64,000 nucleotides of DNA, taken from contig JBBELK010000666.1 of the NCBI GenBank assembly GCA_037783545.1, positions 1,285,001 through 1,349,000 of the forward strand. The letters are read 5' to 3'. A model generated the notes under the pieces. The model searched no databases, had not been told where the DNA came from, and worked only from the letters and a program-made list of their open reading frames with translations. Position 1 is the stretch's first letter, and each line of letters starts with the position of its first letter. Origin of the DNA: Henricia sp. BOLD:AAB3569. Taxonomy: Eukaryota; Echinodermata; Asteroidea; Spinulosida; Echinasteridae. The position numbers were made by a program, and so were the translations under genes. Below, piece after piece: positions 10,623 to 62,560 of the stretch.

Positions 10623-10738
10623 CTAAAGAAATCGTACAATAGTAATAGGTGATCGGAATGAGTTCCGATCACCTAAAAAAAGACAAAGAAATCGTACAAT
10701 ATCAATAGGTGATCGGGTTGAGCCCGATCACCTAATAA
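10623..10738 (+). repeat. Two tandem ~60-bp hairpin repeats at unit junction
   Basis: Each repeat carries 'aaagaaatcgtac' and then a near-perfect hairpin of the form aggtgatcgg...ccgatcacct, at 10647-10674 and 10707-10733. The stem sequence also occurs near the head of every unit. The loop differs between the two repeats while the stem is kept. Confidence 0.8.
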
Positions 10739-10848
10739 CTAGAGGTATGACGTTTGTTGTTACAAACGCCAGGTGATCGGGGTAAATGAACATTTTGTGA
10801 TGAATTTCAGACGTTGTTATCACCTGTGGAATGGCAAAAATGGAAGTT

Positions 10849-10971
10849 CAGCAGCCGATTTCACGAAACTTTACTCAATTGCGCAAGTCCACTTACGCCA
10901 TTACTTGCGCAATAACTTATGGCGTAGGTGGACTTGCGCAATTGCGTAAAGTTTCGTGAAATCGGCTGCTG
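10849..10971. mobile_element. CAGCAG-family palindromic MITE
   Basis: The ends are perfect inverted repeats beginning 'cagcagccgatttcacgaaa'. The interior continues the palindrome with 'gcgcaagtccacttacgcca'. It is 123 bp long and non-coding. The other copies are at 19355-19477, 28836-29002 and 1-42. Confidence 0.8.
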
Positions 10972-11530
10972 TATACACTAATCCGGTAACTAATATCTCC
11001 TCCCTGCATATCCGCCATAGCTGGGGGGTTGATAGCTTGCACCGTTTTGAGATATGAATTGTTGAAATAATAATCTTTGAAATCTTGTAATGTGACACCT
11101 GTGACGACATCATGACGTCACAATTTTGTGCACAAATTGTTGAACAATATGTTAAACATCAAGTTCTTAAATGTGGCGAAGGAATCATACCAATATCTGT
11201 TGTAGTTTTCAAGATACAGCATTTTAAAACATCTCAGCTCCAAATTTGCGTAATTTGACACCACATTACGTAACCACCGTCCATGTCATGACGTCACCAA
11301 TGGTATAGTCAAAAGGTCCACATGTGTGGAAACATTTCGTTCCGTAGAAATATGGTCAAATTCACTACCACTTTGAATCTATTTGCATTAAAAATGCTAA
11401 AAATTTGCACATTTTCGAAGAACTTCCGGTTTGGACCGGAAGTAGGCGTCACACAGGGGTCATGACATCGTATGATTTGTTCAGTTCATTTAGACTTATC
11501 ATGTTGTGAAAGAATTGTTCAAGTATCTAT

Positions 11531-13449: not shown

Positions 13450-14341
13450 TATTACGGTTCTTGAGATATGAATTTTGAAAATAATAACCTTTGAATTTTT
13501 GTAATTTGACACCTGATGACGTCATGATACTATACATGCTGGTGAAAGTCTGCCGTAGGGCCTATGTCTGTATCTAATTTACTAACGATTCAGCTTGGTT
13601 TGATGGGCATTGTTACTGGTATATAAGTGTAAAAACTGAGATTTCCGTTTTCGTTGAACTTTGACCTCCAATTGACCCCAGAAGGAAGGGTCAGATGAAA
13701 ATGCCCACACAAAGAAAGTTGTAGCACAGAATGTCATCTATAAACCTGCCAAATACGAAGATCCTGGATCACGTGGTTTTCGAGATGGAAGCATTTTAAA
13801 ATATGCATATTTTGGTTTTTTGGGAGGTGTAATTTGATACTTAATGACGTCACGATGACGTCACGCTTGATGCCATCATAATATTAAACACGCTGGTGAA
13901 AGTCTGCTATAGGACCTATGCCTGTACTTAGTTTCTTAAAGATTCAGCTTGGTTTGATGGGCATTGTTGCTCAATAAGTGCAAAAATTGAGATTTTCGTT
14001 TTCGTTGAACTTTGACCTCAGATTGACCCCAGAAGAAAGGGTCAGATGAAAATGCCCACACGAACAAAATTGTAGGCCATGATCTGATATATAGGCCTGT
14101 CAAATACGAAGATCATGGGTCACGTGGTTTTCCAAACGGAAGCATTTTAAAACATGCATATTTTGGTCATTTTTGGTTTGTAATTTGATACCTAATGACG
14201 TCACAATGACGTCACACTTGTATGCACATCTTCACATTGGGGTTGATGTTCCTACCAAGTTTTAAGTTGATAGCTTGAACCGTTTTGAAGAAAACCTCTG
14301 GAAACGTTTGAGTGGAAAAAGAAAAAAAAAAAAAAAAAAAA

Positions 14342-14515
14342 TAAAGAAATCGTACGAGAGCAATAGGTGATCGGGCTGTTGGCCCGATCACCTAAAAATA
14401 AAGAAATCGTACGAGAGTAATAGGTGATCGGGCTGTTGGCCCGATCACCTAAAAAGACAAAGAAATCGTACGAGAGTAATAGGTGATCGGGCTGTTGGCC
14501 CGATCACCTAATTAA
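14342..14515 (+). repeat. Three tandem hairpin repeats at the tail of the left block
   Basis: Hairpins aggtgatcggg-ctgttgg-cccgatcacct lie at 14365-14393, 14422-14450 and 14481-14509. Each is preceded by 'aagaaatcgtacgagag' and spaced 57-59 bp apart. The three loops are identical, which implies recent amplification or homogenisation. Confidence 0.85.
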
Positions 14516-14713
14516 TAAAAATGGTAAATAGTCGAGTTCTATATACGCTTTACCAGCCGTTCACTATCGCGCGAGACTCACGATTTTGTCGCGAACGATT
14601 CGCTCTTCATTTGGCAGCTTTCTGTTTGCTTTGGATATCTCTCATTTTCTGCTGAATATTGCACTGGACATGGACAGCTTCCGTTTTCTGTGGAGGGGTT
14701 GACATTTATAGTT
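14516..14713. other. Spacer between converging element blocks; host sequence
   Basis: Positions 14516-14658 match 55995-56135 of the second duplication copy closely, so this is host sequence caught between two element blocks that point their tails at it. The remaining ~55 bp, up to the hairpin at 14714, has no counterpart in copy 2. Confidence 0.7.
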
Positions 14714-14830
14714 AGGTGATCGGGCCAACAGCCCGATCACCTATTACTCTCGTACGATTTCTTTGTCTTTTTTTTTAGGTGATCGGAACTTTTTCCGATC
14801 ACCTATTGATATTGTACGATTTCTTTGTCT
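14714..14830 (-). repeat. Two inverted hairpin repeats at the tail of the right block
   Basis: Hairpins at 14714-14742 and 14777-14804 use the same stem as the left arrays. They are followed by 'cgtacgatttctttgtcttt', the reverse complement of the linker there. The second loop differs in sequence (aacttttt). Confidence 0.8.
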
Positions 14831-17389
14831 TTTTTTTTTTTTTTTTCATTTTTTTTCTTTTTCCACTCAAACGTTTCCAGAGCTTTTCTTCAAAACGGTT
14901 CAAGCTATCAACTTGAAACTTGGTAGGAACATCAACCCCAATGTGAAGGTGTGCATACAAGTGTGACGTCATTGTGACGTCATCGGGTGTCAAATTACAA
15001 CCCAAAAATGACTAAAATATGCATGTTTTAAAATGCTTCCGTCTGGAAAACCACGTGACCCATGATTTTCGTATTTAGCAGGCTTATACATAAGATCATG
15101 GCCTACAATTTTCTTCGTGTGGGCATTTTCATCTGACCCTTCCTTCTGGGGTCAATTTGAGGTCAAAGTTCAACGAAAACGAAAATCCCAATTTGTGCAC
15201 TTAATGAGCAACAATGCCCATCAAACCAAGCTGAATCTTTAAGTAACTAAGTACAGGCATAGGTCCTATGGCAGACTTTCACCAGCATGTATAATATTAT
15301 GATGGCATCAAGCGTGACGTCATCGTGACGTCATCAAGTATCAAATAACACCCCCAAAAAAACTAAAATATGCATATTTTAAAATGCTTCCGTCTTGAAA
15401 ACCACGTGACCCAGGATCTTCGTATTTGGCAGGTTTATAGATGACATTCTGTGCTACAATTTTCTTTGTGTGGGCATTTTCATCTGACCCTTCCTTCTGG
15501 GGTCAATTGGAGGTCAAAGTTCAACGAAACTGAGAATCTCAGTTTTTACACTTACCAGCAACAATGCCCATCAAACCAAGCTGAATCGTTAGTAAATTAG
15601 ATACAGACATAGGCCCTACGGCAGACTTTCACCAGAATGTATAGTATCATGATGGCATCAAGTGTGACGTAATCATGACGTCATCAGGTGTCAAATTACA
15701 AAAATTCAAAGGTTATTATTTCAAAAATTCATATCTCAAGAACCGTAATAGATACTTGAACAATTCTTTCACAACATGATAAGTCTAAATGAACTGAACA
15801 AATCATACAATGTCATGACCCCTATGTGACGCCTACTTCCGGTCCAAACCGGAAGTTGTTCGAAAATGTGCATTTTGTTAAGCGTTTTGAATGCAAATAG
15901 ATTCAAAGTGGTAGTGAATTTGACCATATTTCTACGGAACGAAATGTTTCCACACATGTGGACTTTTTGACTATACCATTGGTGACGTCATCACATGGAC
16001 GGTAGTTACGTAATGTGGTGTCAAAATACGCAAATTTGGAGCTGAATTGTTTAAAAATGCTGTATCTTGAGAACTACAGCAGATATTTGCATGATTCTTT
16101 CGCCACATTTAAGAACTTGATGTTTATCAAATTGTTGAACAATTTGTGCACAACATTGTGACGTCATGATATCGTCACAGGTGTCAAATTACAAAAATTA
16201 AATGGTTATTATTTCAAAAATTCATATCTCAAGAATCGTAATAGATACTTGAACAATTCTTTCACAGCATGATAGGTCGTAATGAACTGAACAAATCATA
16301 CAACGGCATGACCCCTGTGTGACCCAAACCTCCAGGCCAAACCGGAAGAGGTTCGAAAATGTACACTTTTTTAGCACTTTGAATGCAAATAGAGCCAAAG
16401 TGGTAGGGAATTTGACCATAGTTCTACGGAACGAAATGTTCCCTCACATGTGGACCTATGACTACATATATACCACTGATGACGTCATCTCGTGCACGGT
16501 GGTTAAGTAATGTGGATAAATTATTTGTTGGGTCCCTTGATAATTAAGCTAACTCAGTCGTTTGAGGGCGCTATGCCAAGCCTCCACTAATCTGACGATT
16601 TGCGCCCATATATAGTGCTCGACTTCTAATAATAGAACTTGTATCTAGGCGGCCTGTCTCGGGTCAGAGGTCATAATGTGCGCGAGTAGTGAATAAGTCA
16701 GACAGACGAGACATAAGCAGGGCTTGATTTACAACCGAGAAAATTGGACTTTTGAAGATGTAAAACTGCTAGTTTCCGTGGCATTTATCGCCAGGAAAGT
16801 TGAATGAACACTAGATAGCACAAGGACATTTACGTTTGGTGACTTAGCTGTTGTATCTTGGGTGTAATTATGTACGGCTAGCCTTAGTCGGCGGACCAGA
16901 GTAAATATGTCTTCTCCCCGAAAACTGTGAATGTGACATGCTGGAAATCGTTGCTGTGTTCGAAATAAAATGGACATGGTGGACCGCAACTCAAGTTGAC
17001 TGGAGCGTCAGTTTATTCTAGATGCAATTGAACCCCAACTCCCCACACGGCGATATACTACAGCAATATGATCTCAAATGACAAAATCTTTAGAACTGTA
17101 ATACTATTGAAAAGATTCTTTCACCACATATAGGCATACATGTCAAAACTTGTTCTTCAGTAGATACTTGAACAAGTAACGTTATGATGAGATTGACGAT
17201 TATGACGTCATCAGATACACAATGTTAGCGTTGAATAGTCAGAGTCATGTCTTGAGAATTCCAATACTTTTTCAACATCAAACAACTCAAGTTTTCAAAC
17301 AATCTCAAAACTGTGTCGTCATCATCATTTCAATGTTTATGTCACCCGATCACCTTGCGTTTGTAAAAAACACAAACGCGAAGCTCTAG
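14831..17389 (-). mobile_element. Inverted B-type unit with internal deletion
   Basis: Read on the minus strand, this starts at the B head (17389, 'ctagagcttcgcg') and runs into the poly-A tail near 14831. At about 17220 it jumps directly from the head region into sequence equivalent to about 3660, so roughly 2 kb of cargo is missing compared with the two forward B units. Confidence 0.8.
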
Positions 17390-19587
17390 TTTTTTTTTTT
17401 TTTTTTTCTTTTTCTTTTTCCACTCAAACGTTTCCAGAGCTTTTCTTCAAAACGGTTCAAGCTATCAACTTGAAACTTTGTAGGAACATCAACCCCAATG
17501 TGAAGGTGTGCATACAAGGGTGACGTCATTGTGACGTCATTGGGTATCAAATTACAACCCAAAAATGACTAAAATATGCATGTTTTAAAATGCTTCCGTC
17601 TGGAAAACCACGTGACCCATGATTTTCGTATTTAGCAGGCTTATAGATAAGATCATGGCCTACGATTTTCTTCGTGTGGGCATTTTCATCTGACCCTTCC
17701 TTCTGGGGTCAATCTGAGGTCAAAGTTCAACGAAAACGAAAATCGCAATTTTTGCACTAATTGAGCAACAATGCCCATCAAACCAAGCTGAATCTTTAAG
17801 TAACTAAGTACAGGCATAGGTCCTATGGCAGACTTTCACCAGCGTGTATAATATTATGATGGCATCAAGCGTGACGTCATCGTGACGTCATCAAGTATCA
17901 AATTACACCCCCCAAAAAAACAAAATATGCATATTTTAAAATGCTTCCGTCTTGAAAACCACGTGACCCAGGATCTTCGTATTTGGCAGGTTTACAGATG
18001 ACATTCTGTGCTACAATTTTCTTTGTGTGGGCATTTTCATCTGACCCTTCTCTCTGGGGTCAATTGGAGGTCAAAGTTCAACGAAACTGAGAATCTCAGT
18101 TTTTACACTTACCAGCAACAATGCCTATCAAACCAAGCTGAATCGTTAGTAAATTAGATACAGACATAGGCCCTACGGCAGACTTTCACCAGAATGTATA
18201 GTATCACGATGGCATCAAGTGTGACGTAATCATGACGTCATCAGGTGTCAAATTACAAAAATTCAAAGGTTATTATTTCCAAAATTCATATCTCAAGAAC
18301 CGTAATAGATACTTGAACAATTCTTTCACAACATGATAAGTCTAAATGAACTGAACAAATCATACGATGTCATGACCCCTGTGTGACGCCTACTTCCGGT
18401 CCAAACCGGAAGTTGTTCGAAAATGTGCATTTTGTAAGCGTTTTGAATGCAAATAGATTCAAAGTGGTAGTGAATTTGACCATATTTCTACGGAACGAAA
18501 TGTTTCCACACATGTAGACTTTTTGACTATACCATTTGTGACGTCATCACATGGACGGTGGTTACGTAATGTGGCGTCAAAATACGCAAATTTGGAGCTG
18601 AATTGTTTTAAAATGCTGTATCTTGAGAACTACAGCAGATATTTGCATGATTCTTTCGCCACATTTAAGAACTTGATGTTTATCAAATTGTTGAACAATT
18701 TGTGCACAACATTGTGACGTCATGATATCGTCACAGGTGTCAAATTACAAAAATTCAAAGGTTATTATTTTCAAAATTCATATCTCAAGAACCGTAATAG
18801 ATACTTGAACAATTCTTTCACAACATGATAAGTCTAAATGAACTGAACAAATCATACGATGTCATGACCCCTGTGTGACGCCTACTTCCGGTCCAAACCG
18901 GAAGTTGTTCGAAAATGTGCAATTTTTTAGCATTTTGAATGCAAATAGATTCAAAGTGGTAGTGAATTTGACCATATTTCTACGGAACGAAATGTTTCCA
19001 CACATGTGGACCTTTTGACTATACCATTGGTGACGTCATTACATGGACGGTGGTTACGTAATGTGGTGTCAAATCACGCAAATTTGGAGCTGAGATGTTT
19101 TAAAATGCTGTATCTTGAGAACTACAGCAGATATTTGCATGATTCTTTCGCCACATTTAAGAACTTGATGTTTATCAAATTGTTGAACAATTTGTGCACA
19201 AAATTGTGACGTCATGATGTCGTCACAGGTGTCACATTACAAGATTTCAAAGGTTATTATTTCAACAATTCATATCTCAAAACGGTGCAAGCTATCAACC
19301 CCCAGCTATGGCGGATATGCAGGGAGGAGATATTAGTTACCGGATTAGTGTATACAGCAGCCGATTTCACGAAACTTTACGCAATTGCGCAAGTCCACTT
19401 ACGCCATACGTTATTGCGCAAGTAATGGCGTAAGTGGACTTGCGCAATTGCGTAAAGTTTCGTGAAATCGGCTGCTGAACTTCCATTTTTGCCATTCCAC
19501 AAGTGATAACAACGTCTGAAATTCATCACAAAATGTTCATTTAACCCGATCACCTGGCGTTTGTAACAACAAACGTCATACCTCTAG
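17390..19587 (-). mobile_element. Inverted A-type unit
   Basis: The minus-strand head 'ctagaggtatgacgtttgtt' is at 19587 and the poly-A tail near 17390 abuts the B head. It contains the CAGCAG MITE at the same internal position as the forward unit but has no counterpart of the 11531-13449 insert. It has fewer ~350-bp sub-repeats than B-type units. Confidence 0.8.
19355..19477. mobile_element. CAGCAG-family palindromic MITE
   Basis: Inverted counterpart of 10849-10971, with the same ends and length, inside the inverted A-type unit. Confidence 0.8.
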
Positions 19588-19785
19588 TTTAAGTTTGTCT
19601 TCACAAACGTTCAACTGTAGGTGTACAGACTAAAACACCTAATGACGAAACACATCCGGCGGTCTGGCTGCGCGAACCACAGCAGTGTATCGGTCTCAAC
19701 GTGTGTGTATTGTGGGGCTAAATGTCACATTGTCCGGTAGACTGTTCACGGTGGAACTCGCTTCGGTTCCTTGGACTTTCTGTGT
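19588..19785. other. Copy-1-specific sequence beside the element block
   Basis: This has no counterpart in duplication copy 2. It contains a short inverted motif ('taggtg'...'cacctaa') resembling the unit hairpin stem. No gene is seen. It is either flanking DNA brought in with the block or the remnant of another element. Confidence 0.4.
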
Positions 19786-19984
19786 TAAAATGTTTATGTT
19801 CAATTCTTCAGAGTTATGTCTAACTTTGTTTTTTATAACCTGAATAAAATAATACAGTAGTCTCTTTTGTCAAATACTCGAAAATATTTTGGGGAAAAAT
19901 AGAGCTGAATTTTATGCAGTACTGCAGTGGGCTACATGTAATAAACTCCCTACGGCTATACGGCTAGAAAAAACAAATAACTCC

Positions 19985-20040
19985 AAGGACACGTGATTTA
20001 TCTGAACCAGAAATCTGGTTCGGATAAATCACGTGACCTT
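19985..20040. repeat. 56-bp palindrome (copy 2 at 56345-56400)
   Basis: The arms 'aaggacacgtgatttat' and complement meet at 'gaaccagaaatctggttc'. Related arms flank a nested MITE at 28811-29033. It is probably a tiny foldback element present before the segmental duplication. Confidence 0.75.
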
Positions 20041-20193
20041 GATTTAAAAAAAAAAGGTTTAAGAACAGCCAAATTTGGTGGTTTCTTTTTAGGCTATCTT
20101 CAGTCTATTTCGGAAAGACTTTCATAATCATGTATGGGTCTATTTCGAGCCCAAAATAGCCCAACAAAGCCGGTATGTCCCTTTAATACCTTT

Positions 20194-20458
20194 TAAGCCC
20201 CGGTCACAACGAACCCACGACGCATTTGGGCAAATCGTGGGTCATCGGGGGTCGTCGCAAAACAGTCCTACGACATTTTGAGCGACATATCTTGTTTTCT
20301 GTCGCGTCCCCATCGCCAAACCATCTTTAATGTGTCGTAGCCCTTGTGACCACTTGAAATAGATTTCGGGCATGCATGTTGCAAGATCTGGCCACGACAA
20401 ATATTGTATGGGTCTACCACGACAACATTTCGTACGATCCGTTGTGACCGGGGCTTTA
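20194..20458. mobile_element. TIR element 'taagccccggtcacaacg', internally deleted
   Basis: The ends are 'taagccccggtcacaacg' and 'cgttgtgaccggggctta'-like. The same element in duplication copy 2 (56586-57190) is 605 bp, so this 265-bp copy lost about 340 internal bases after the duplication. No transposase is present. Confidence 0.75.
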
Positions 20459-20679
20459 GGGACACTCTGTACAGTGACCATCTGTCTTTGGTTCCGAATG
20501 GATTATGTATACATTGCTATATAACACAACTTTGTAATGTGACCACCTGCTTATAATGACCACCTTCCTGACCATTCTAAAGGGCTAACCACACAGGATG
20601 CGTATGCATAAATTTATATATTTATAATTTCTAAAACAACAATTTCAGAGGAAAAGGTGTGGGTGTACATACGGGTTGG

Positions 20680-20820
20680 TATAGAGCTTCTGCACCGGCG
20701 GCCATGAGAGGGGGCAGGTTTAAATGATGTAACAAAAGAACCATAAAGCACCTACTCATGCATGACACATGGTAACAATGTAATTTCTCCATGTCATGAC
20801 CGCCGTGCAAAGGCTCTATT
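20680..20820. mobile_element. TATAGAGC-family MITE
   Basis: The TIRs are 'tatagagcttctgcaccggc' and its partner around 'gccgtgcaaaggctcta'. It is about 140 bp and non-coding. Other copies are at 27916-28051, 54234-54372 and 57416-57556, with a degenerate one at about 36075-36216. Confidence 0.8.
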
Positions 20821-21195
20821 GCCCAACTTGACACACAAACAGTTAATGTGAAATAACCCAGGGGCGTAGGCTGGGGTGTCGCCAACAACAGAGGAATTCA
20901 GTCTTTCAATAAAAAGTTTTCCCGTGCGTGATGTAATTCGTTCACAAAAATCTCCATTGGTGTTCAGCCCCAACCGCAGCCCGATAACCCAACTTGGTGA
21001 TCTCAGATTTAGGAGGTGACGGCGTGTTTTTGTTTTTTACACCGCAGCGAGGGGTACACTCAAATTGTTCAACCCAAACAGAGTACAAGTTTTCAATGAC
21101 TGATACTTCTCAAGTGACAATCTTGGAAATAGTCACAACTCTTACTCTCACTATTAGAGAAAAAAGAAGAAACCAAAAATTTCGAAAACCCCAAA

Positions 21196-21265
21196 CAACA
21201 CTGAGATTTGAACCAGGGACCTTACGATTGCAAGTCGAGCTCTATTCTAACCAGACTACGAAGCT
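21196..21265 (-). repeat. tRNA-Ala-like SINE head or tRNA pseudogene (copy at 57927-57998)
   Basis: On the minus strand the sequence reads as a decayed tRNA. It has an A-box-like 'tagtctggttag', an anticodon-loop-like 'cttgcaa' as in tRNA-Ala(TGC), and a B box 'ggttcaaatc'. The cloverleaf stems are imperfect, so it is a derived repeat and not a working tRNA. No clear SINE body is recognised. Confidence 0.45.
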
Positions 21266-21927
21266 GGTTGCAAACCGATCGCATTTAAAACCCAAAATTC
21301 CTTTAAAATAACCAACCCTAAACCCTAACCTATTATATAGTCTCCTCTCAAGACGCTAAAAAGGTACAAAACCCCTCGTTTTCCCCTCGCAGTGGTGTAA
21401 AACAAAATACGCGTGCGGGCTTTACAAGGTACTGTCGGTACATGCATACATACTGCGTAATTAATTGAACGCCGCAACCCTGGTTTAGGTTTTATTTAAC
21501 AAAAGGAAAACCACTTTTCTTCTATATTTGTGTGTGCTTTGCGTGCAAAATATTAAACTCTGTCGGTTACCGATATCATTTTGCTATCTTCTTTTTTTCA
21601 TTTTGTTAATTTGATATTGTATGTATTAATCACTTTTAGACGACAGTATTTGGTTGTGAAAAAGACCATGTGGTCTATTTTAACATTCTCACCCCGTGTA
21701 ATAGAAATGCCATACTAAATATAATACTATAGATAGTATTTATAAATGTCAAAGACGAGTGTCAATTGCTATAAATGTTAAAGACATGCATTGGAAATTG
21801 ACAAAAGACACACTTGATGTGAAATAACATGACATGACGACTATACGAATAAGACAAAAATGGAGTGTAAATTGTGAGATGAGCTACACACGAGAAGCTC
21901 TAACTATGTGTGCGTTGTGTATTTTAG

Positions 21928-24900
21928 GATGCGAAGCCAGCGGACGGTTAACTGCTGAAGACTGGATCCTTGCCGGCGACAAATGCTACTATTATAATAA
22001 TCCAACGCGGTCACATATCTTTGACCATCTGTGGTATGTGGAGGCCGTGTACCAATGTAGAGACGTCGGTGCTCAGGTGCTCGTTCCACGTACTACGGAT
22101 GACATTGAAACCTTTAATGACCACGCGGGGAAGCCAAAGAATAGCTGGTTGTGGATCGGCTGTGAATATGAGATTCCACTAGGTTTGTACGCACCTGCTT
22201 TTCCAACATAATTCAACAATCATTTCTTAATAATGGATCCAGCGTTTCATACTTGCGCATTGATTGCTTTCGATGACGTAGAACATCCGGGAATGTGTGG
22301 TGGTCAACAGTCACGCGCGTACACGCGCGCGCCACTGGACGCACACGGACACGCGTAACAAATACTTACCAGCGTATTTTCATTCAAAGATGCCACACAC
22401 GTACTAGCCTTGTTCAAGGCTATGAAATTGTGTGAATCCGTGAAGAATTTGCCTGTATGCTATGCAGCGAAAGTGCGCCACCACGCGGTGAATTGTAACC
22501 AACTGTCAAATAGTCTGGTTAGTTACCGTAATATCTTGGTCTGAATCCTGACTTCACGCGCGAGGCTGGATCATCCAGCCTCGTCCGTGAAGTCAGGATT
22601 CAGACCAAGATATTACGGTAACCAGACTATTTGACAGTTGGTTACAATTCACTGCGTGGTGGCGCAATTTCGCTGCATAGCATACAGGCAAATTCGTCAC
22701 GGATTCACACAATTTCATAGCCTTGGACAAGGCCGGCTACACACGTACACGCGCGTTGTGATACGTTCAAAATATTGAGCATGCAGTCAGCTTGTAAACA
22801 CGAAAGTACTTCTACTTGATCGCGATTTTTAGCCTGAAGAAAGACATTTTTATCTTTATCGATACAACAGCCATGGCGCAACAACATAAAGCAAGGTTAA
22901 GCAACGGAGGTAAGTGCAACCAATTCGCTTTTCTTGCTCTGTTTGCCGGTTATTACTCGAGCCACGTGGGTCATAAAACATGCCCACCAAAATGGTGGAT
23001 GGAAGGCGTGACGTCACCGGAAAGCAATCAATTTGGGAAAACCCCCCAAAATAATTAAATTTTCTATTTACTTTGAAAAAAGCCGAGTCAATAAAAGTCA
23101 ATGTCGGAAAATAGAATTAAGTAACGGCACAGTCATGCTGAAGCACTTTTCGACTTGCACTCATCAGAGCAAAGCGCAAGAATGGGCGGTTGCACGTCTC
23201 TGTCTTAGACATTCAGAAATTGACTTTTGTAGCCTACCTATACCTCTGCATGGAACTACGTAAATCAACTGATTATTATAGACTCGAGGGTGTTAATCCG
23301 AAAATCAGTGTTGGCATGTCGACAAACTTGCAATTTAAGTGGTTTTAATTATAGGTTTCCTTAGACTAGTTCCCGTTCACATATTCCACATGGGAAAATA
23401 TTGATTGCTTTCCGGTGACGTCACCCCTTCCATCGACCATTTTGGTGGGCATTTTTCATGACCCACGTGGCTCGAGTGATAACCGGCAAAAAGAGCAAGA
23501 AAAGCGCATTGGTTGCACCTACCTCTGTTGCTTAACCTTGCTTTATGTTGTTGCGCCATAGCTGTTGTATCGAGAAAGATAAAAACGCATTTCTTCAGGC
23601 TAAACATCGCGTCAAGTAAAAGCACTTTCGTTTTTACAAGCCGAGTGCATGCTCAATAATTTGAACGTATCACAACGCCCGCGTGCGGCATCTTCGAATG
23701 AAAATACGCGGGTAAGTATTTTTTTTACGCGTGTTCATGTGCGTCTATTGGCGCGCGCGTGTACGCGCGTGACTGTTGACCACCACACATTCCCGGATGT
23801 TCTACGTCATCGAAAGCAATCAATAGGGACAGGTAGAGATAGACTGGTTCCCGCTCCACATATTCCACATACAACGACTGAATATGAGGACCGGCTACTG
23901 TAGTGTTTAATATAGCACTTTAAGCATTACGTCATGCATTTATTTTTAGGAGCACATAACCGTTAATTTTCAAAGCGCGCTGCGCGCTATATGGCATGAG
24001 TATACAACAATTTGAAAGGGGTTATTTCTTATTTGACCAATACAAATTTAATATATTAACCTTAAAATATTAAATATGCCCATTTTAATATACATGTAGG
24101 CTAGCATCAAAAAGAAAATTCAAACCTTGTCTGCATCACCCAGTAAGCTCCTACGGTTACCGTAACTATAGCCACTGCGTAGTTTTAAATCCGTGGCATC
24201 ACTATAAATACACACGCAGCGGCACGCGTACGTACGTGCACGCGATACATGCAATTCAAATTTTCGAAACAATGACGAATTGTACCCGACGATTAACGGT
24301 AACGTCCGGACGTGCATTCGGGTAACTTCGGGAACCTTCGGAAAAAGGAGGAATTCCTCCTGTTTCAAAATGGCGGAATTGGCGGCTGCCTGACCTTAAA
24401 TTCAGTCTAGTCAAAGAATTTTTGGTCCGGGTACCAGACTAAGGTAGAGAACGCTTTATCTTGATCTGTGATTGGTCGTCTTTGCGCGTGCGCATTTTGT
24501 GTTTTATATTGTAAAATTGGCGAAGCCCTTTGCATGCTTTAGGCAATGTAATGTACTTTGTTTACTTTTGGATATGTTCGACACACACGGCCGAGTTACA
24601 AATGTCGATGCAAAATATACGCACTTACTAACAAATAATAATAGGCCTAATAATAATAATAATAACCACGTGACCTGGCATAATTCTGCCCGTCATGGAT
24701 GCCCTTTACCGATCCCTATATATTTTTGTGCAATAAGCGATGGGATCGGGAACCAATCTAAGGTTTTTTCGCACAGTTTAAAACCCTTTTCTCTATTCAA
24801 ATTCATAGTCAGTTAACATAGTTGATAACATGTTGATTTTACCTAACTTTGGGGTACTGAATCCAAAAATGATTGTTACTATATTGAGCTGTATTTTGAA

Positions 24901-25833
24901 ATTAAAGAGATTTTTAGCAAAAAAATAGTATTAAAATACTAATTTTTGTGACAAAGTCTTATCAAATAGAACATTGTAACATGCAACACTCTTCTACTTA
25001 ATGTTGGGGTGCTGAATCTAAAAATAATGGTTAGCAGGCTATTTGTTCGTGGTGAAGGGTTATTTCGAGCCAAAAACGTGACAAAATGGCTTTAAAACGC
25101 CAGTTTGTGTACTAAAAAAAACCAGGTACAAATAAAACATAATAACATTTTGGTAACATATCGATTTTACCTTATTTTGGGGTGCTGAATAAAAAAAATG
25201 TTACCAAGCTGTACTTTAAGGGCAAAAGGGCTTTTTTGCAAAAAAAAATGGTTTAAAACATTAGTGTTTGGTTTTTAAAAATAGAGCATGGTAACATGCC
25301 ACTCTTAATTTTGGAGCGCTGAATCCAAAAATGACGGTTACCAAACTGTAGGACTACTTTTTTTTTTTTGCAAAAACATAAAAATGGTTTTAAAAACATT
25401 ATTTATTGTACAAAACCAGGTGACATGTTTACTGTGTCAGGTGACAAAATCTGGCCAATCACGGCAAGTGTTATTCAGGCCTGGTATTGGGTGACGTCAC
25501 GCACACTCTTCGGAGGATTTCATGAGAAGTTGAACAGTGGTTGGTGCGAAAAAAAACACGCAAAACCACTGCGTAGGATCAGTGTATGATTTTGGCTGCG
25601 CACAGACTTTAAAGTAATATTCACATTCTCATCCTACTCCAGGGAGATACATCTGTCAAGACGGTCTTCCCCCTCCCAAGGGTTTTTCCACGTACGGGGA
25701 TAACTGCAGAGACAACCAGGAGGAGAGCCTCGCGCTCGCCAGGTCAATTTTCGGCGACATTAATGAGGTGAAATCCAATACTGTAATGAGTTTTGTTTGC
25801 GTGAAACCTGCGACAAACTGCGGTGATCTGTGA
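21928..25833 (+). CDS. Secreted C-type-lectin-like protein, upstream partial copy (two exons)
   Basis: Two exons, 21928-22182 and 25643-25833, match exons 3 and 4 of the complete gene at 52815-60933. The first follows 'ttgtgtattttag' and ends at donor 'gtttgt'. The second follows 'ctactccag'. Both junctions are phase 1 and the join keeps the frame. The product has CYYY, the C..C spacing, 'WLWIGCEY' and 'FVCVKP' of a C-type lectin fold, but no EPN/QPD or WND calcium-sugar motif. No signal-peptide exon is found upstream inside the window. The gene may start beyond the left edge, behind 14 kb of mobile DNA, or be a 5'-truncated duplicate. It ends in NCGDL, a tail the downstream copy has lost. 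The 3.5-kb intron contains nested inverted-repeat elements. Confidence 0.7.
22259..23824. mobile_element. 1.57-kb inverted-repeat element
   Basis: Long arms (22259-23033, interrupted, and 23398-23824) are imperfect reverse complements. The ends are 'attgattgctttcgatgacg'. Each arm carries an inner copy of a similar motif, 'ggtgacgtcaccggaaagca' on the left and its inverse on the right. Both arms contain 'acagccatggcgcaacaac', or a near copy, followed about 35 bases later by a gta(a/g)gt-like donor on the left and a degraded one on the right. It is non-autonomous. The left arm is split by the palindrome at 22405-22739. Confidence 0.75.
22405..22739. mobile_element. Nested palindromic MITE with 9-bp target duplication (MULE-like)
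   Basis: Two ~150-bp arms form one long hairpin with a loop near 'gctggatcatccagc'. The ends are 'tagcc' and 'ggcta'. The 9-bp direct repeats 'cacacgtac' flank it at 22396-22404 and 22740-22748. A 9-bp target duplication is typical of Mutator-like elements. The uninterrupted opposite arm of the host element (about 23680-23700) shows the pre-insertion state. Confidence 0.8.
24197..24375 (+). promoter_or_regulatory. Promoter-like patch: TATA-like box and YY1-like ATG
   Basis: 'actataaatacac' resembles a TATA box near 24200. About 170 bp downstream, 'caaaatggcggaattggcgg' matches the YY1-type AAnATGGCGG start-site motif, but the open frame after that ATG ends after seven codons. Only duplication copy 1 has this patch, since copy 2 lost it in a 2.1-kb deletion. 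It may be a degenerate gene start or chance. Confidence 0.25.
24850..25365. repeat. Satellite-like ~150-bp monomers in lectin intron
   Basis: Several diverged monomers contain 'ggtgctgaatccaaaaatga', 'aagctgtattttaa' and 'tggtaacatgccactctta'. The same monomer family forms the inner arm ends of the foldback element at 30105-34982 and recurs at 59456-59885 and about 60410-60480. Confidence 0.75.
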
Positions 25834-26256
25834 CTCTCAATCCCAAACTAGAGTTTTCTGAACGAGATTCCTCTTTCTTGATGATTACTATTATCTACCC
25901 AGTACTTATTAACACTGCTAGTTAGTGCATTATATAAAGTATAATCCAGTGCTAGTATAAGTCGCTACATGTAGTCAACTCACCTCTCAGACTATTCACA
26001 ATTATGTTAAATTTTTATTTGATCCTTTCATTTAATTATGGATGTGAATTTGTCATTGACTCTACTCGTGACACGACATACTCATCTGACACGACGAATT
26101 ATTGTTCTAACATGAATATCAATGGTCTCCATGGCTCTACGTGAGTCAGAATTTTCTTTCACAAAAGGAAACTACTAGGGCTATTATAACATTTTGAATA
26201 ATTCACTATTCGAATAATATAATCAAATATTTCATTGAATATAGCAAATTCATGTT

Positions 26257-26395
26257 AAAGGCAGAGGCTCGTCAATGCGCGCGCGCGTGAGGCTAAATTC
26301 GTGCCACGATTTACGCAGCTCCATAGCAAAGGCATATAGCTGCGTATTTCGTGGCACGGATTTGGCCTCACGCGCGCATTGACAGTCTGTGCCTT
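26257..26395. mobile_element. GCGCGC-family MITE
   Basis: The element is near-palindromic with ends 'aaaggcagaggctcgtcaat' and inverse, and an interior 'gctccatagcaaaggcat'. Copies of the family lie at 26941-27073, 43172-43312, 61313-61451 and 62010-62144. Confidence 0.8.
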
Positions 26396-26940
26396 CTAGC
26401 TGCCTTGATTACAATGATGTGTATAAATTGAATATCAAATAATAATCACACTAAAGCTTTGATTCAGTAACGCTGGATCTGAATTGGTGGCTATTGCTGT
26501 TGCTTTGCTGTTGCTCCGGGCGGACAATGAAAGTCCAGCCACAGCCACAGCCAAAGCCATAATTTCGGATCCAGCCTAAATAAATGCTGTCGCTCCAGAA
26601 GGAAGTGATTCTTCTGAAAATGTTCACTTTGGATTAAACCACAGGAATCGTGCAAGTTAGGATTGTTTCGTCTTGCATTTATTATTTTCCCACTCGGAAG
26701 CTCAGACCACCTGAAATGAACCAAACCGACTTTTTTAAGTTCCTCAGATGACACCAAAACGCAATCATGATGTTCCAAGAAATAAAAACTGGCTCCAAAC
26801 CAAATATTCAAGATGGCGTTTTGTTGTTAAAATACCTTCAAAACAACACAACGGGCTTGCAATACAAAATACTGATAGGAAATCTGTGACATCATCGCCC
26901 GCGCATTGGGTACACTAATACCATTCGGTTTCACAACGCA

Positions 26941-27073
26941 TTTTTGCCGTCAGTAATGCGCGCGCGTCAAAATTTGTGCCACGAAATACGCAGCTCCATA
27001 GCAAAGGCATGGAGCTGCGTAATTCGTAGCACGAATTTGGGGCGTGCGAATTGCTGACGAGCCTGTGTCTTTA
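26941..27073. mobile_element. GCGCGC-family MITE
   Basis: Diverged member with 'gcagctccatagcaaaggca' in the centre and 'gctgacgagcctgtgt' at the right end. The counterpart in duplication copy 2 is 62010-62144. Confidence 0.7.
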
Positions 27074-27310
27074 ATCTTTTAAGGATCAAGGGGGATTTTC
27101 TAAATCTCGGCTTTGTCTCCGTCTCCGTCTCTGTCTGCTTATGGTTTACATGGAGCCGGAGCCTGAGCCTGAGCCCAAGTCGAAATTTGGAAAAAAAGCC
27201 AAGGTAGTTCAATGCATTTTTCTGAAATCCACCGGCAAATTCAGATATTTTAGCAGGAGCCTCGTCGTTTACCTCGGGAAGCTCATCATCGAACGCAATA
27301 GGCTAGGCAG

Positions 27311-27377
27311 CACTGGAGGTGGGGGAGGGGGGGGGGGGGGGAGCGGCGAGCGGCGAGCGGCGAGCGGCGAGCGTGCG
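27311..27377 (+). repeat. G-run and 7-bp microsatellite at the duplication edge
   Basis: A run of about 14 or more G is followed by about five 'gcgagcg' units. It lies exactly where homology to duplication copy 2 ends. The G run could form a quadruplex. Confidence 0.8.
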
Positions 27378-40085: not shown

Positions 40086-40478
40086 TGTGGACGTTATAAA
40101 CAGCAGCTCCATTTTAAAGTGAGGAATTTCTGGTGCCAGCCATAATGCAAAGGTTAAACGCAAAAGTGATTGAAATATAGGTTTCCCGCCAATTTCAGCA
40201 AAGAAGCGGACAATTTGAACAAGTGTCATTCTATTTGCCGCGAAATCGAATGCTACATGTTCGCAATAAGGATTAAAATTATTTTAAAAAGTATGTAATT
40301 CCACTCTTGCGGCAAACGATTTAATAAAAATAAAAGTCCGATTTAACAACTGCATCGATCAGCATTTAGACTCGAAGGAGAGTTTCTAACCACACACATC
40401 ATTCGTATTCATCTATGGGCGGACATTTGTGGAATTGGTGCACTTTAATAAATTGCACTAATTTGTAATCTCTTTTCC

Positions 40479-40998: not shown

Positions 40999-41030
40999 AA
41001 AAAAATAAATAAATGAGTACAATATATGCC

Positions 41031-47219: not shown

Positions 47220-47270
47220 TTTTTTCCCATCTCCAATGATGATCAGACTTATGCTCTTTTCCCCTTCATT

Positions 47271-55800: not shown

Positions 55801-58800
55801 TTGAGTGGATTACAACCTTTCCAAAGATATGTCTTTTTTTATTCTGAAATGTTCAGCACTATCGCCATAATTAAAAGTAATACCGACCACCTGTGTACAG
55901 AATTTAGTGATGTTGCATCCTTGTCAATAATTGTTTATGGTCCTCGTGAAAAAGGATCATCAAAATGTCCCGTAATTAACTACAAAATAAGCTTAAAATT
56001 AATATAAATGGTCAATAGTCGAGTTATACGCTTTACCAGCCGTTCACTATCGCGCGAGACTCACGATTTTGTCGCGAACCATTCGCTCTTCATTTGGCAG
56101 CTTTCTGTTTGCTTTGGATATCTCTCATTTTCTGTTAAAATGTTTATGTTCAAATCTTCAGAGTTATGTCTAACTTTGTTTTTTATAACCTGAATAAAAT
56201 AATACAGTAGTCTCCTTTGTCAAATATTCTAAAATATTTTGGGGTAAAATAGAGCTGAATTTTATGCAGTACTGCAGTACATGTAATAAACTCCCAGAAT
56301 TAACTATAAATTACGGCTATACGGCTAGAAAAAAAACTAACTCCAAGGACACGTGATTTATCCGAACCAGAAATCTGGTTCGAATAAATCACGTGACCTT
56401 GATTTAAAAAAAAAAGGTTTAAGAACAGCCAAATTTGGTGGTTTCTTTTAAGGCTTTATTTGGTGGTTTTTTTAATTTGGTGGTTTTATCTTCAGTCTAT
56501 TTCGGAAAGACTTTCATAATCATGTATGGGTCTATTTCGAGCCCAAAATAGCCCAACAAAGCCGGTATGTCCCTTTAATACCTTTTAAGCCCCGGTCACA
56601 ACGAACCCACGACACGACATAAAATTTGGGCAAATCGTGGGTCATCGGGGGTCGTCGCAAAACAGTCCTACGACATTTAGAGCATCCTGGCATCGACTTG
56701 CCGTCGTGAGGCAAAATTGGACATGCACCTTTTTTACTCGACGATTTTTTGTTGTATCTATATCTTGTGGCTGTCGTGAGTCTGTCCTACGACAGTCTTG
56801 TGACAGTCTTGCGTTATATAGTCGGGAGACGGACGCGCGAGCGTCCCACGAATGCCACGACTGTTGGGCGACAGTCTTGCGACAGTCGCACGATTGTCGC
56901 ACGCGCATCCCACGAGTGAACCACGACCTGATCAAGTGAAAAACAGCCCCCGACAATGCCCGACGACTCACGATGGTCCCACGACTGTCGCACGACTGAC
57001 TTGCGACACACCCACGACATATCTTGTTTTCTGTCGCGTCCCCATCGCCAAACCATCTTTAATGTGTCGTAGCCCTTGTGACCACTTGAAATAGATTTCG
57101 GGCATGCATGTTGCAAGATCTGGCCACGACAAATATTGTATGGGTCTACCACGACAACATTTCGTACGATCCGTTGTGCCCGGGGCTTTAGGGACACTCT
57201 GTACAGTGACCATCTGTCTTAGTTGGTTCCGAATGGATTGTGTATATAGTGCTATATAACACAACTTTGTAACGTGACCACCTGCTTATAATGACCACCT
57301 TCCTGACCATTCTAAAGGGCTAACCACGCAGGATGCGTATGCATAAATTTATATATTTCTATATTTCTAAAACAACCATTTTAGAGGAAAAGGTGTGGGT
57401 GTACATACGGGTTGGTATAGAGCTTCTGCACCGGCGGCCATGACAGGGGGCAGGTTTAAATGATGTAACAAAAGAACCATAAAGCACCTACTCATGCATG
57501 ACACATGGTAACAATGTAATTTCTCCATGTCATGACCGCCGTGCAAAGGCTCTATTGCCCAACTTGACACACAAACAGTTAATGTGAAATAACCCAGGGG
57601 CGTAGGCTGGGGTGTCGCCAACAACAGAGGAATTCAGTCTTTCAATAAAAAGTTTTCCCGTGCGTGATGTAATTCGTTCACAAAAATCTCCATTGGTGTT
57701 CAGCCCCAACCGCAGCCCGATAACCCAACTTGGTGATCTCAGCTTTAGGGGGTGACGGCGTGTTATTTTTACACCGCAGCGAGGGGTACACTCAAATTCT
57801 TCAACCCAAACAGAGTACAAGTTTCCAATGACTGATACTTCTCAAGTGACAATCTTGGAAATAGTCAAAACTCTTACTCTCACTATTAGAGAAAAAAGAA
57901 GAAACCAAAAATTTCGAAAACCCCAAACAACACTGAGATTTGAACCGGGGACCTTACGATTGCAAGTCGAGCTCTATTCTAACCAGACTACGAAGCTTGT
58001 TGCAAACCGATCGCATTTAAAACCCAAAATTCCTTTAAAATAACCAACCCTAAACCCTAACCTATTATATAGTCTCCTCTCAAGACGTTAAAAAGGTACA
58101 AAACCCCTCGTTTTCCCCTCGCAGTGGTGTAAAACAAAATACGCGTGCGGGCTTTACAAGGTACTGTCGGTACATGCATACATACTGCGTAATTAATTGA
58201 ACGCCGCAACCCTGGTTTAGGTTTTATTAAACAAAAGGAAAACCACTTTTCTTCTATATTTGTGTGTGCTTTGCGTGCAAAATATTAAACTCTGTCGGTT
58301 ACCGATATCATTTTGCTATCTTCTTTTTTTCATTTTGTTAATTTGATATTGTATGTATTAATTACTTTTAGACGACAGTATTTGGTTGTGAAATAGACCA
58401 TGTGGTCTATTTTAACATTCTCACCCCGTGTAATAGAAATGCCATACTAAATATAATACTATATATAGTATTTATAAATGTCAAAGACGAGTGTCAATTG
58501 CTATAAATGTTAAAGACATGCATTGGAAATTGACAAAAAACACACTTGATGTGAAATAACATGACATTACGACTATACAAATAAGACATAAATGGAGTGT
58601 AAATTGTGAGATGAGCTCTAATTATGTGTGCGTTGTGTATTTTAGGATGCGAAGCCAGCGGACGGTTAACTGCTGAAGACTGGATCCTTGCCGGCGACAA
58701 ATGCTACTATTATAATAATCCAACGCGGTCACATATCTTTGACCATCTGTGGTATGTGGAGGCCGTGTACATTTGTAGAGACGTCGGTGCTCAGGTGCTC

Positions 58801-60933
58801 GTTCCACGTACTACGGATGACATTGAAACCTTTAATGACCACGCGGGGAAGCCAAAGAATAGCTGGTTGTGGATCGGCTGTGAATATATACCTACAGAAG
58901 GTTTGTACGCACCTGCTTTTCCAACATAATTCAACAATCATTTCTTAATAATGGATCCAGCGTTTCATACTTGCGCATTGATTGCTTTCGATGACGTAGA
59001 ACATCCGGGAATGTGTGGTGGTCAACAGTCACGCGCGTACACGCGCGCGCCACTGGACGCACACGGACACGCGTAACAAATACTTACCAGCGTATTTTCA
59101 TTCAAAGATGCCACACACGTACTAGCCTTGTCCAAGGCTATGAAATTGTGTGAATCCGTGAAGAATTTGCCTGTATGCTATGCAGCGAAAGTGCGCCACC
59201 ACGCGGTGAATTGTAACCAACTGTCAAATAGTCTGGTTACCGTAATATCTTGGTCTGAATCCTGACTTCACGCGCGAAGCTGGATCATCCAGCCTCGTCC
59301 GTGAAGTCAGGATTCAGACCAAGATATTACGGTAACCAGACTATTTGACAGTTGGCTACAATTCACCGCGTGGTGGCGCACTTTCGCTGCATAGCATACA
59401 GGCAAATTCGTCACGGATTCACACAATTTCATAGCCTTGGACAAGGCCGGCTACACACTGAGCTGTATTTTGAAATTAAAGAGATTTTGGCAAAAAATAG
59501 TATTAAAATACTAATTTTTGTGACAAAGTCTTATCAAATAGAACATTGTAACATGCAACACTCTTCTACTTAATGTTGGGGTGCTGAATCTAAAAATGAT
59601 GGTTAGCAGGCTATTTGTTCGTGGTGAAGGGTTATTTCGAGCCAAAAACGTGACAAAATGGCTTTAAAACGCCAGTTTGTGTACTAAAAAAAAAACAGGT
59701 ACAAATAAAACATAATAACATTTTGGTAACATATCGAATTTACCTTATTTTGGGGTGCTGAATAAAAAAAAAATGTTACCAAGCTGTATATTAAGGGCAA
59801 AAGGTCCTTTTTGCACAAAAAATGGTTTACATAAACATTAGTGTTTGGTTTTTAAAAATAGAGCATGGTAACATGCCACTCTTAAAGGCCCAGTGGATCA
59901 TTTGCAATGACCCAAAAAAGTAATTGACGAGTTTACAGGGGAAAAGTTCTGAAAGTAAAGATTGAATTAATAGCAACTATCCAATGAAAGGTTTTCGCTT
60001 AAAATGATATAATTTTACCAGAAAATAATCCGTAAAGATGAAATTATTTAGATCGTTTGCAAACGATTTACTTATTTTTGGTTCGCATCTACGCGGTCCA
60101 ATATGCATGGGCGCTGTGTACTTCGTGTGCGTGTTCCAACGCAATGCATTTTTATGGATTGCGCGCACACGCAGTATGTGCGCCACAGAGTGCATGACGC
60201 AAGCCACATATAGTACCCGATCAACTGAGAACGAATATTTGAAACACCCCGACAAGACCAGGAAAATGCATATGGATTTTCATGTTTTTTTAAACGTGGT
60301 ACATTTGACAAAGCTGAAATTTCTTCGGATGAGTTTGTTGATGTCTTTCTTTTGATTTATAATGGTTTTATTCGCAGAATCGCTCAAAAACAGATCATCT
60401 ACCGGGCCTTTAATTTTGGAGCGCTGAATCCAAAAATGACGGTTACCAAACTGTAGGCCTACTTTGAAATGTTTTTTTGTTTGCAAAAACATAAAAATGG
60501 TTTTAAAAACATTATTTATTGTACAAAACCAGGTGACATGTTTACTGTGTCAGGTGACAAAATCTGGCCAATCTCGGCAAGTGTTATTCAGGCCTGGTAT
60601 TGGGTGACGTCACGCACACTCTTCGGAGGATTTCATGAGAAGTTGAACAGTGGTTGGTGCGAAAAAAACACGCAAAACCACTGCGTAGGATCAGTGTATG
60701 ATTTTGGCTGCGCACAGACTTTAAAGTAATATTCACATTCTCATCCTACTCCAGGGAGATACATCTGTCAAGACGGTCTTCCCCCTCCCAAGGGTTTTTC
60801 CACGTACGGGGATAACTGCAGAGACAACCAGGAGGAGAGCCTCGCGCTCGCCAGGTCAATTTTCGGCGACATTAATGAGGTGAAATCCAAAACTGTAATG
60901 AGTTTTGTTTGCGTGAAACCTGCGACAAACTGA
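52815..60933 (+). CDS. Secreted C-type-lectin-like protein, complete four-exon gene
   Basis: Exons 52815-52854, 54064-54093, 58646-58900 and 60755-60933 join in frame, all introns in phase 1, to 167 codons plus stop. Exon 1 codes a signal peptide (MAMLGLLLCVLAI) and ends at a perfect gtaagt. Exon 2 is a 30-base microexon (AIVDDTAAL) that could be skipped without changing frame. Exons 3-4 carry a compact lectin-like domain with W36, C43, C67, 'WLWIGCEY' (97-104), C113, C130 and 'FVCVKP' (159-164). EPN/QPD and WND motifs are absent, so calcium-dependent sugar binding is not predicted. Compared with copy 1, a 60-bp deletion ends the protein at KPATN. Secretion and a recognition role are inferred from the family. 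Introns contain MITEs, a SINE and a TTAA element. Confidence 0.8.
53330..53496. mobile_element. GCGGGCC-family MITE, first of a joined pair
   Basis: Ends 'taagcgggcctcccactgtg' and inverse, with 'gagactgtctatagactcta' in the centre. It lies in lectin intron 1 and directly abuts the next copy. Confidence 0.85.
53495..53659. mobile_element. GCGGGCC-family MITE, second of a joined pair
   Basis: Shares its left end 'ttaagcgggcc' with the right end of the preceding element, so the two overlap by a few bases in the junction 'cgctttaagcg'. The interior differs enough to show it is not a fresh tandem duplicate. Confidence 0.85.
54234..54372. mobile_element. TATAGAGC-family MITE
   Basis: Ends 'tatagagcctttgcacggcg' and 'ggtgcagaagctctatt', in lectin intron 2. 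Shares 'catgcatgagtaggt' with other members. Confidence 0.8.
55071..55277. mobile_element. hAT-like MITE with 5-bp target duplication
   Basis: Ends 'caggggcggatccaga' and 'ctggatccgcgcctg', flanked by 'ccatc' at 55066-55070 and 55278-55282. It contains a long interrupted G run near 55210-55240. Confidence 0.85.
55331..55560 (+). mobile_element. tRNA-derived SINE
   Basis: A box 'tggccgagtgg' at 55335-55345 and B box 'ggttcaaacc' at 55391-55400 form a Ser/Leu-type tRNA-like head. The body includes 'cccttgagcaaggcaccc', a motif shared by many deuterostome SINE/LINE tails, and 'gtaacgcactttaaagatcc'. Plus orientation, within lectin intron 2. Confidence 0.7.
56345..56400. repeat. 56-bp palindrome, counterpart of 19985-20040
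   Basis: Same palindrome with few substitutions, in duplication copy 2. Confidence 0.75.
56586..57190. mobile_element. 605-bp TIR element, longer form of 20194-20458
   Basis: Ends 'taagccccggtcacaacg' and inverse. The interior is rich in 'cgacagtc' and 'gtcgcacga' motifs in both orientations. It shows what the copy-1 element lost. No transposase frame is recognised. Confidence 0.8.
57416..57556. mobile_element. TATAGAGC-family MITE, counterpart of 20680-20820
   Basis: Almost identical to the copy in duplication 1, so the insertion predates the duplication. Confidence 0.8.
57927..57998 (-). repeat. tRNA-Ala-like SINE head, counterpart of 21196-21265
   Basis: Same minus-strand tRNA-like sequence with B box 'ggttcaaatc' and loop 'cttgcaa', with single-base differences from copy 1. 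Confidence 0.45.
58977..59459. mobile_element. Truncated inverted-repeat element and nested palindrome
   Basis: Only the outer left arm and the nested palindromic MITE (59123-59453) of the 22259-23824 element remain. The sequence then jumps from 'ggctacacac' to 'tgagctgtattttgaaatta', which in copy 1 lies 2.1 kb further on. A single deletion after duplication explains this. Confidence 0.8.
59456..59885. repeat. Satellite-like ~150-bp monomers (counterpart of 24885-25305)
   Basis: Same monomer motifs as in copy 1 ('ggggtgctgaatctaaaaat', 'acatgccactctta'). The array is interrupted at TTAA (59882-59885) by the next element. Confidence 0.75.
59886..60409. mobile_element. 524-bp element at a TTAA target (piggyBac-like)
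   Basis: It is flanked by TTAA on both sides (59882-59885 and 60410-60413). The ends are 'aggcccagtggatcatttg' and the inverse of 'aggcccggtagatgatc'. Duplication copy 1 has the empty site 'ccactcttaattttggagc' at about 25305 with one TTAA. No transposase is seen. Target and empty site support a piggyBac-type non-autonomous element inserted after the duplication. Confidence 0.8.
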
Positions 60934-61312
60934 TGATTACTATTATCTACCCAGTATTTATTAACACTGCTAGTTAGTGCATTATATAAAGTATAATCCA
61001 GTGCTAGTATAAGTCGCTACATGTAGTCAACTCACCTCTCAGACTATTCACAATTATGTTAAATTGTTATTTGATCCTTTCATTTAATTATGGATGTGAA
61101 TTTGTCATCGACTCTACTCGTGACACGACATACTCATCTGACACGACGAATTATTGTTCTAACATGAATATCAATGGTCTCCATGGCTCTACGTGAGAGT
61201 CAGAATTTTCTTTCACAAAAGGAAACTACTATAGGGCTATTATAACATTTTGAATAATTCACTATTCGAATAATATAATCAAATATTTCATTGAATATAT
61301 CAAATTCATGTT

Positions 61313-61451
61313 AAAGGCAGAGGCTCGTCAATGCGCGCGCGCGTAAGGCTAAATTCGTGCCACGATTTACGCAGCTCCATAGCAAAGGCATAGAGCTGCG
61401 TATTTCGTGGCACGGATTTGGCCTCACGCGCGCATTGACAGTCTGTGCCTT
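61313..61451. mobile_element. GCGCGC-family MITE, counterpart of 26257-26395
   Basis: Near-identical palindromic element at the equivalent position downstream of the lectin stop codon. Confidence 0.8.
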
Positions 61452-62009
61452 CTAGCTGCCTTGATTACAATGATGTGTATAAATTAAATATCAAATAATA
61501 ATCACACTAAAGCTTTGATTCAGTAAGGCTGGATCTGAATTAGTGGATATGGCTGTTGCTTTGCTGTTGCTCCGGGCGGACAATGAAAGTCCAGCCACAG
61601 CCACAGCCAAAGCCATAATTTCGGATCCAGCCTAAATAAATGCTGTCGCTCCAGAAGGAAGTGATTCTTCTGAAAATGTACACTTTGGATTAAACCACAG
61701 GAATCGTACAAGTTAGGATTGTTTCGTCTTGCATTTATTATTTTCCCACTCGGGAAGCCGAGACCACCTGAAATGAACCAAACCGACTTTTTCAGGTTCC
61801 TCAAATGACACTAAAACGTAATCATGATGTTCCAAGAAATACAAACTGGCTCCAAACCAAATTATATTCAAGATGGCGTCCAAGATGGCCACCAAAATAG
61901 TTTTGTTGTTAAAATACCTTTAGAACAACACAACGGGCTTGCAATAAAATGTGTGACATCATCGCCTGCGCATTGGGTACACTAATACCATTCGGTTTCA
62001 CAACACATT

Positions 62010-62144
62010 TTTGCCGTCAGTAATGCGCGCGCGCCAAAATTTGTGCCACGAAATACGCAGCTCCATAGCAAAGGCATGCATGGAGCTGCGTAATTCGTGG
62101 CACGAATTTGGGGCGCGCGCATTGCTGACGAGCCTGTGCCTTTA
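62010..62144. mobile_element. GCGCGC-family MITE, counterpart of 26941-27073
   Basis: Same position in duplication copy 2, with a cleaner right end ('gctgacgagcctgtgccttt') than copy 1. Confidence 0.8.
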
Positions 62145-62560
62145 ATCTGTTAAGGATCAAGGGGGCTTTTCTAAATCTCGGCTTAGTCTCCGTCTCCGTC
62201 TGCTTATAGTTTACATGGAGCCGGAGCCTGAGCCTGAGCCCAAGTCGGGATTTGGAAAAAAAGCCAAGGTAGTTCAATGCATTTTTCTGAAATCCACCGG
62301 CAAATTCAGATATTTTAGCAGGACCGTCGTCGTTTACCTCGGGAGGCTCATCATCGAACGTAATAGGCTAGGCAGCACTGTACAATGAAACGCAACTGGT
62401 CCAGTATCCCGACAGTCAAAACTAGACAAGATTTGTGATTTTAACTCGCATCGAATCTCTGAGTGACTATGGTGTTTGTTTAATAACTCACACAAACACG
62501 ACGAATAATCGCAAAAAAAAACGACACAAATCAAATTCAGTTCACAGAAAACGAAGTTCG

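Follow-up and report, generated by a model that had tools for sequence, protein, structure and literature searches.

Two short in-frame patches account for the differences between the copies of a duplicated, putatively lectin-like exon

Results

Two copies of an exon predicted to encode the first half of a C-type lectin-like domain lie 36,718 bases apart in a 64,000-nucleotide stretch of DNA (here called the window) and differ at 11 of 255 bases, comprising one codon (3 of 3 bases changed) and one 12-base block (8 of 12 changed). The codon patch occupies exon positions 126-128 (caa/att; QCRDV versus ICRDV), the block differences lie within exon positions 243-253 (gagattccacta/atacctacagaa; CEYEIPL versus CEYIPTE), and both patches preserve frame and length (Table 1). 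This two-cluster difference had been described in the initial annotation, and its coordinates, bases, and residues all proved correct on direct comparison. The patches look wholly replaced, which fits one-step block replacement rather than point mutation. As the origin of each patch we tentatively favor, with slightly less than even confidence, short-tract, non-allelic gene conversion whose donor would be a third and more diverged member of the family.

Table 1. Coordinates of the duplication, its exons, and the two variant patches, numbered from the first base of the window
Feature	Position	Strand	Remarks
Segmental duplication, copy 1	19783..27315	.	Collinear blocks interrupted by copy-specific stretches
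Segmental duplication, copy 2	56133..62380	.	Collinear blocks interrupted by copy-specific stretches
First exon, copy 1	21928..22182	+	Predicted N-terminal half of C-type lectin-like domain; acceptor ...tattttag before, weak donor g|gtttgt after
First exon, copy 2	58646..58900	+	
Variant codon, copy 1	22053..22055	+	CAA (Gln); residue before the cysteine aligning with the helix-1 cysteine
Variant codon, copy 2	58771..58773	+	ATT (Ile)
Variant block, copy 1	22170..22181	+	GAGATTCCACTA (EIPL); ends 1 base before exon end
Variant block, copy 2	58888..58899	+	ATACCTACAGAA (IPTE); Glu aligned to Glu of the DC-SIGNR EG pair
Second exon, copy 1	25643..25833	+	Predicted C-terminal half of domain; acceptor ...ctactccag to stop after ...VKPATNCGDL
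Second exon, copy 2	60755..60933	+	Acceptor-like ...ctactccag before; stop immediately after ...VKPATN

In a 2.46-kb alignment of the copies, the substitutions in the flanks are all single-base changes, as originally described, but that description omitted small indels, which are also present (14 bp at 21882-21895, 4 bp at 22518-22521, and others). From 21904 to 22414 there are zero substitutions outside the two patches. The lack of any synonymous difference, which had been presented as part of the pattern, holds when the exons are read ungapped but carries little weight as an argument, with 0 such changes observed over the two exons and 1.84 expected (P = 0.16). In a gapped codon reading (EIPL-/-IPTE), the codons for the Ile-Pro common to both copies (att/ata and cca/cct) would themselves differ synonymously.

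The first exon joins a second exon in frame in both copies, and across 178 shared bases the second-exon copies differ by a single substitution (N/K, Asn/Lys). The copies end differently because of a ∼60-base copy-specific indel at the stop codon (25821-25878 versus 60931-60933): copy 1 continues to CGDL, which includes a cysteine, before its stop, and copy 2 stops immediately after ATN. The first exon had been labeled "exon 3", but no convincing upstream exon backs the number 3. Under strict criteria, no upstream exon was found within ∼5 kb of either copy. One candidate obtained with looser criteria, starting at 21879 in copy 1, is weak, has a poor donor, and is without a copy 2 counterpart, and another at 5298-5352 (+ strand of the window) is distant, lies inside a repeat array, and was not accepted. 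The first-exon donor is itself weak when scored against a consensus (−0.41 and 1.05). Given this weak donor and the lack of a convincing upstream exon, both the number 3 and a complete working gene in either copy are putative, and each copy appears to be a gene or gene piece. Rfam at gathering thresholds and ARAGORN returned 0 hits each.

The joined product of the two exons reads as a degenerate C-type lectin-like domain in which the canonical EPN and WND motifs are missing. Pfam PF00059 (Lectin_C; cut-off, 22.6 bits) matched the joined exons over positions 5-107 of the 107 in the profile, at 22.9 bits for copy 2 (E = 1.4e-4) and 20.3 bits for copy 1 (E = 9.3e-4), the latter slightly below the cut-off. 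The first exon by itself also scored below it (13.8 and 14.2 bits). With the joined copy 2 product as sole query, the best solved relatives were DC-SIGNR-type domains, aligned end to end at E = 3.3e-6; the first exon alone gave E = 0.016. The joined copy 2 product matches the WxG, EG, DG, and outer cysteine positions of DC-SIGN/DC-SIGNR domains but differs from DC-SIGNR in having RDN for EPN, INE for WND, and extra cysteines, so that in this alignment copy 2 has neither an EPN or QPD motif nor a WND motif. A canonical C-type lectin-like domain has four cysteines in two disulfides. Copy 2 retains the outer pair (YICRDV and FVCVKP), whereas the inner pair of DC-SIGNR aligns with Leu and Ser. With EPN and WND replaced by RDN and INE, the domain is not predicted to bind sugar in the canonical way.

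In copy 2, IPTEG is aligned with LNQEG of DC-SIGNR, which gives copy 2 a Glu at the EG position, and a Tyr occupies the position of the Asp; copy 1, read ungapped, has Leu where copy 2 has the EG-position Glu. The acidic ligands of Ca2+ site 1 in DC-SIGN are D320 and E324. The 12-base block falls in the loop that bears a Ca2+-site-1 ligand in DC-SIGN-type domains, with the copy 2 Glu aligned with such a ligand. The single variant codon is outside this loop and aligns immediately before the first-helix cysteine.

The copies are best read as two genes, or gene pieces, produced by a recent duplication in what looks like the genome of an animal. Six aligned segments of the duplication, counted without single-copy stretches and a few bases at segment ends, contain 110 substitutions in 5,276 columns. 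Of these substitutions, 12 fall in the 433 coding columns and 98 in the 4,843 noncoding columns, and noncoding substitution divergence between the copies is ∼2%. Copy-specific stretches include 2.1 kb at 22745-24884 and 524 bp at 59886-60409. The latter is an insertion in copy 2 with TTAA flanking both sides (25305-25308 in copy 1) and short inverted ends (aaggccc/gggcctt), and it resembles a piggyBac-type non-autonomous element. A false haplotype duplication is unlikely, given the ∼28.8 kb of other sequence between the duplication copies and their different insertions, which argue for a true duplication rather than one haplotype joined twice.

The intron after the first exon contains a long inverted repeat in both copies (22407-22733 and 59125-59447), self-complementary at ∼94% and 97%. 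The left flank of copy 2 (55997-56134) matches 14510-14651 at 95%, and the duplication may extend further left, in which case ∼5.1 kb of repeat-array sequence (14652-19782) would interrupt copy 1. Elsewhere in the window, positions 1-19396 form a large mosaic of direct and inverted repeats in which the longest pair of direct repeats has an offset of ∼4.55 kb and is 96% identical, a tandem array with a period of ∼26 bases and shifted self-matches ∼98% identical occupies 40477-40999, and a retrotransposon-like element at 45473-49152 carries zinc knuckle, endonuclease, and reverse transcriptase domains in several frames.

As the initial annotation had argued, random point divergence is a poor explanation for the patches: among 20,000 uniform placements of an equal number of substitutions, the largest 12-base count always stayed below 8. 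Merging noncoding substitutions no more than 3 bases apart turned the 98 substitutions in 4,843 columns into 88 events, none larger than 2 bases. Clustered events of at least 3 bases account for 2 of 3 coding and 0 of 88 noncoding events (Fisher P = 0.0007), an enrichment that, like the other statistics given here, is post hoc and built on few events, the exon having been picked for showing this pattern. Likewise post hoc is the run of 509 bases around the patches that is free of any further substitution (with uniform placement, P about 0.008); the 254 noncoding bases within it give P = 0.01 for these alone.

Replacement events are not in excess, with 3 observed against 6.2 expected (P of 3 or fewer = 0.13), and only event size is odd. 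Counting base by base, with 11 replacement-site changes and 0 synonymous, would suggest strong positive selection, an inference that event counts caution against and that we rejected because the synonymous expectation is just 1.84 and replacement events fall below their own expectation. The same counts give no support to focused diversification at a binding surface, another process suggested in the initial annotation, and neither the EPN nor the WND motif is conserved. Between the two 12-base blocks, 4 of 12 bases agree, which is the level of random strings (P of at least 4 = 0.30 under a codon null and 0.38 under a base null), and the block therefore looks replaced rather than drifting. Ile-Pro is common to both blocks in a shifted register (P about 0.025), a hint that the blocks represent variants that diverged within the family.

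Short-tract conversion from a paralogue had also been suggested at the outset, and we favor it, but a donor tract was looked for in the window and none was found. Neither 12-base block, nor any of the 10- and 11-base pieces tested, recurs exactly on either strand of the window, and the exon has no further copy in the window beyond these two (22.3 bits and E = 0.12 for the next best tblastn match). Exact matches that include an entire patch (at least 8 bases for codons, at least 11 for blocks) were absent locally for both kinds of patch and absent window-wide for the blocks; the best window-wide matches for the codon patches, 11 bases for copy 1 and 10 bases for copy 2 (in 4 places), are taken as chance. 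For all four patches, a local template or donor was rejected, with 0 exact words of at least 8 bases covering at least 3 differing bases within 400 bases in direct or inverted orientation. Inexact 10-of-12 matches to the blocks, besides their own sites, numbered 2 for copy 1 and 7 for copy 2 (4.8 expected for each). One inexact match, at 25864, lies in a copy-1-only stretch just past the second exon, and its first 8 bases are those of the copy 1 block. The copy 2 first exon had no relative in viral_contigs (8 pattern matches) or genome_contigs (46), where an animal gene is not expected.

Discussion

Under gene conversion, each patch would have arisen in one step, in one copy, from an unseen paralogue. 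If exons alone remain similar enough to pair, conversion would be restricted to them, and the 12-base block does end 1 base from the exon edge, where such similarity would run out; conversion from a third paralogue best explains both features. Less securely, the rest of the exon may have been kept identical by copy-copy homogenization, purifying selection, or both, and the changed residues might have been tolerated or favored through altered surface properties. A conversion tract, however, normally brings neighboring differences with it, whereas the patches here are 3 and at most 12 bases, and two separate in-frame events would be needed within one exon. Conversion carrying multi-base replacement changes between paralogues is described for newt sodium channels (PMC8476164), and the red and green opsins, duplicates that undergo conversion, show peaks of divergence at sites under selection (PMC3924837).

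The patches could instead be multinucleotide mutations or complex indels, made without a donor by error-prone repair or template switching and kept at tolerant surface positions, an origin that is possible but that we consider doubtful. The number of coding events, which is not above the neutral expectation, agrees with such an origin, and a gapped alignment of the blocks (a 3-base gap, 1- and 2-base gaps opposite, and two mismatches) scores 36.4, compared to 34 ungapped. Compensating frameshifts inside the block are possible and would need three gaps plus two mismatches. Template switching gave up to five neighboring residue changes in yeast genes (PMC8604942), and within-codon double substitutions in primates and yeasts were judged a mutational bias rather than selection (PMC9500374). 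Nevertheless, none of the patches has a local template word, none of the 88 noncoding events in the same duplication clusters 3 or more bases, and the exon would have to undergo two separate in-frame events, as for conversion.

We regard as unlikely an assembly or polishing artifact, an origin for which the initial annotation had left room. In such a case one copy would have been built with reads of another haplotype or of a third paralogue similar in the exon, and one patch state would not truly belong to its locus. Mis-mapped reads of a paralogue with diverged introns could produce a short, in-frame, exon-only pattern, and near-identical repeats are abundant in the window. The loci are otherwise distinct, however, with scattered intron differences, copy-specific stretches, ∼28.8 kb between the duplication copies, and no N, and mis-polishing would be expected to affect more than 15 bases.

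Concerted evolution, in which copy-copy conversion homogenized the exon and selection held copy-specific residues at two sites, seems improbable. It predicts the peak-and-valley shape seen here, which is described for opsin genes ∼24 kb apart (PMC3924837), and it accords with the 509-bp valley and its noncoding half. By itself, however, it leaves the origin of the 8 changed bases among 12 unexplained, its tracts would have to stop within a few bases of each patch, and half of the valley could be explained by constraint on the exon alone. There is a similarly slim chance that the patches serve as cassette sites in a large, unseen family of lectin-like genes. Repeated micro-conversion or a targeted process would then effectively randomize a few defined codons on a constant backbone, leaving the rest of the exon and the introns untouched and giving germline receptor diversity.

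The pattern is real and tidy and probably represents a known kind of duplicate-gene evolution, and it is of interest mainly if further paralogues share the same hotspots. If real and common to further paralogues, it would provide a clean natural example of block-wise protein change in a recognition-type domain.

A narrow literature search returned no description of such a pattern in a C-type lectin pair. In the H-2K bm mutants of the mouse, an example of MHC class I microrecombination, clusters of a few changed bases are reportedly copied from other family members, with known donors. Exon 5 of the human red and green opsins resembles the lectin pair in combining neighboring similar duplicates, a peak of protein-changing divergence, and low divergence of the flanking introns (PMC3924837); the opsin sites are tied to color sensitivity, whereas the lectin-pair patches are just 3 and 12 bases. 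For sodium-channel genes of Taricha newts, non-allelic conversion is likewise proposed for multi-base replacement changes at functional-site regions, among tandem paralogues and duplicated exons (PMC8476164). There, both partners are known and several species are compared, whereas no partner with either block lies in the window for the lectin pair. The sea urchin 185/333 genes are also closely linked invertebrate genes, of an immune type, for which conversion, recombination, and mispairing have been proposed (PMC1988830). Their diversity lies in which elements each of the many genes has or lacks and is greater in the intron, in contrast to the two copies and exon-confined patches of the lectin pair.
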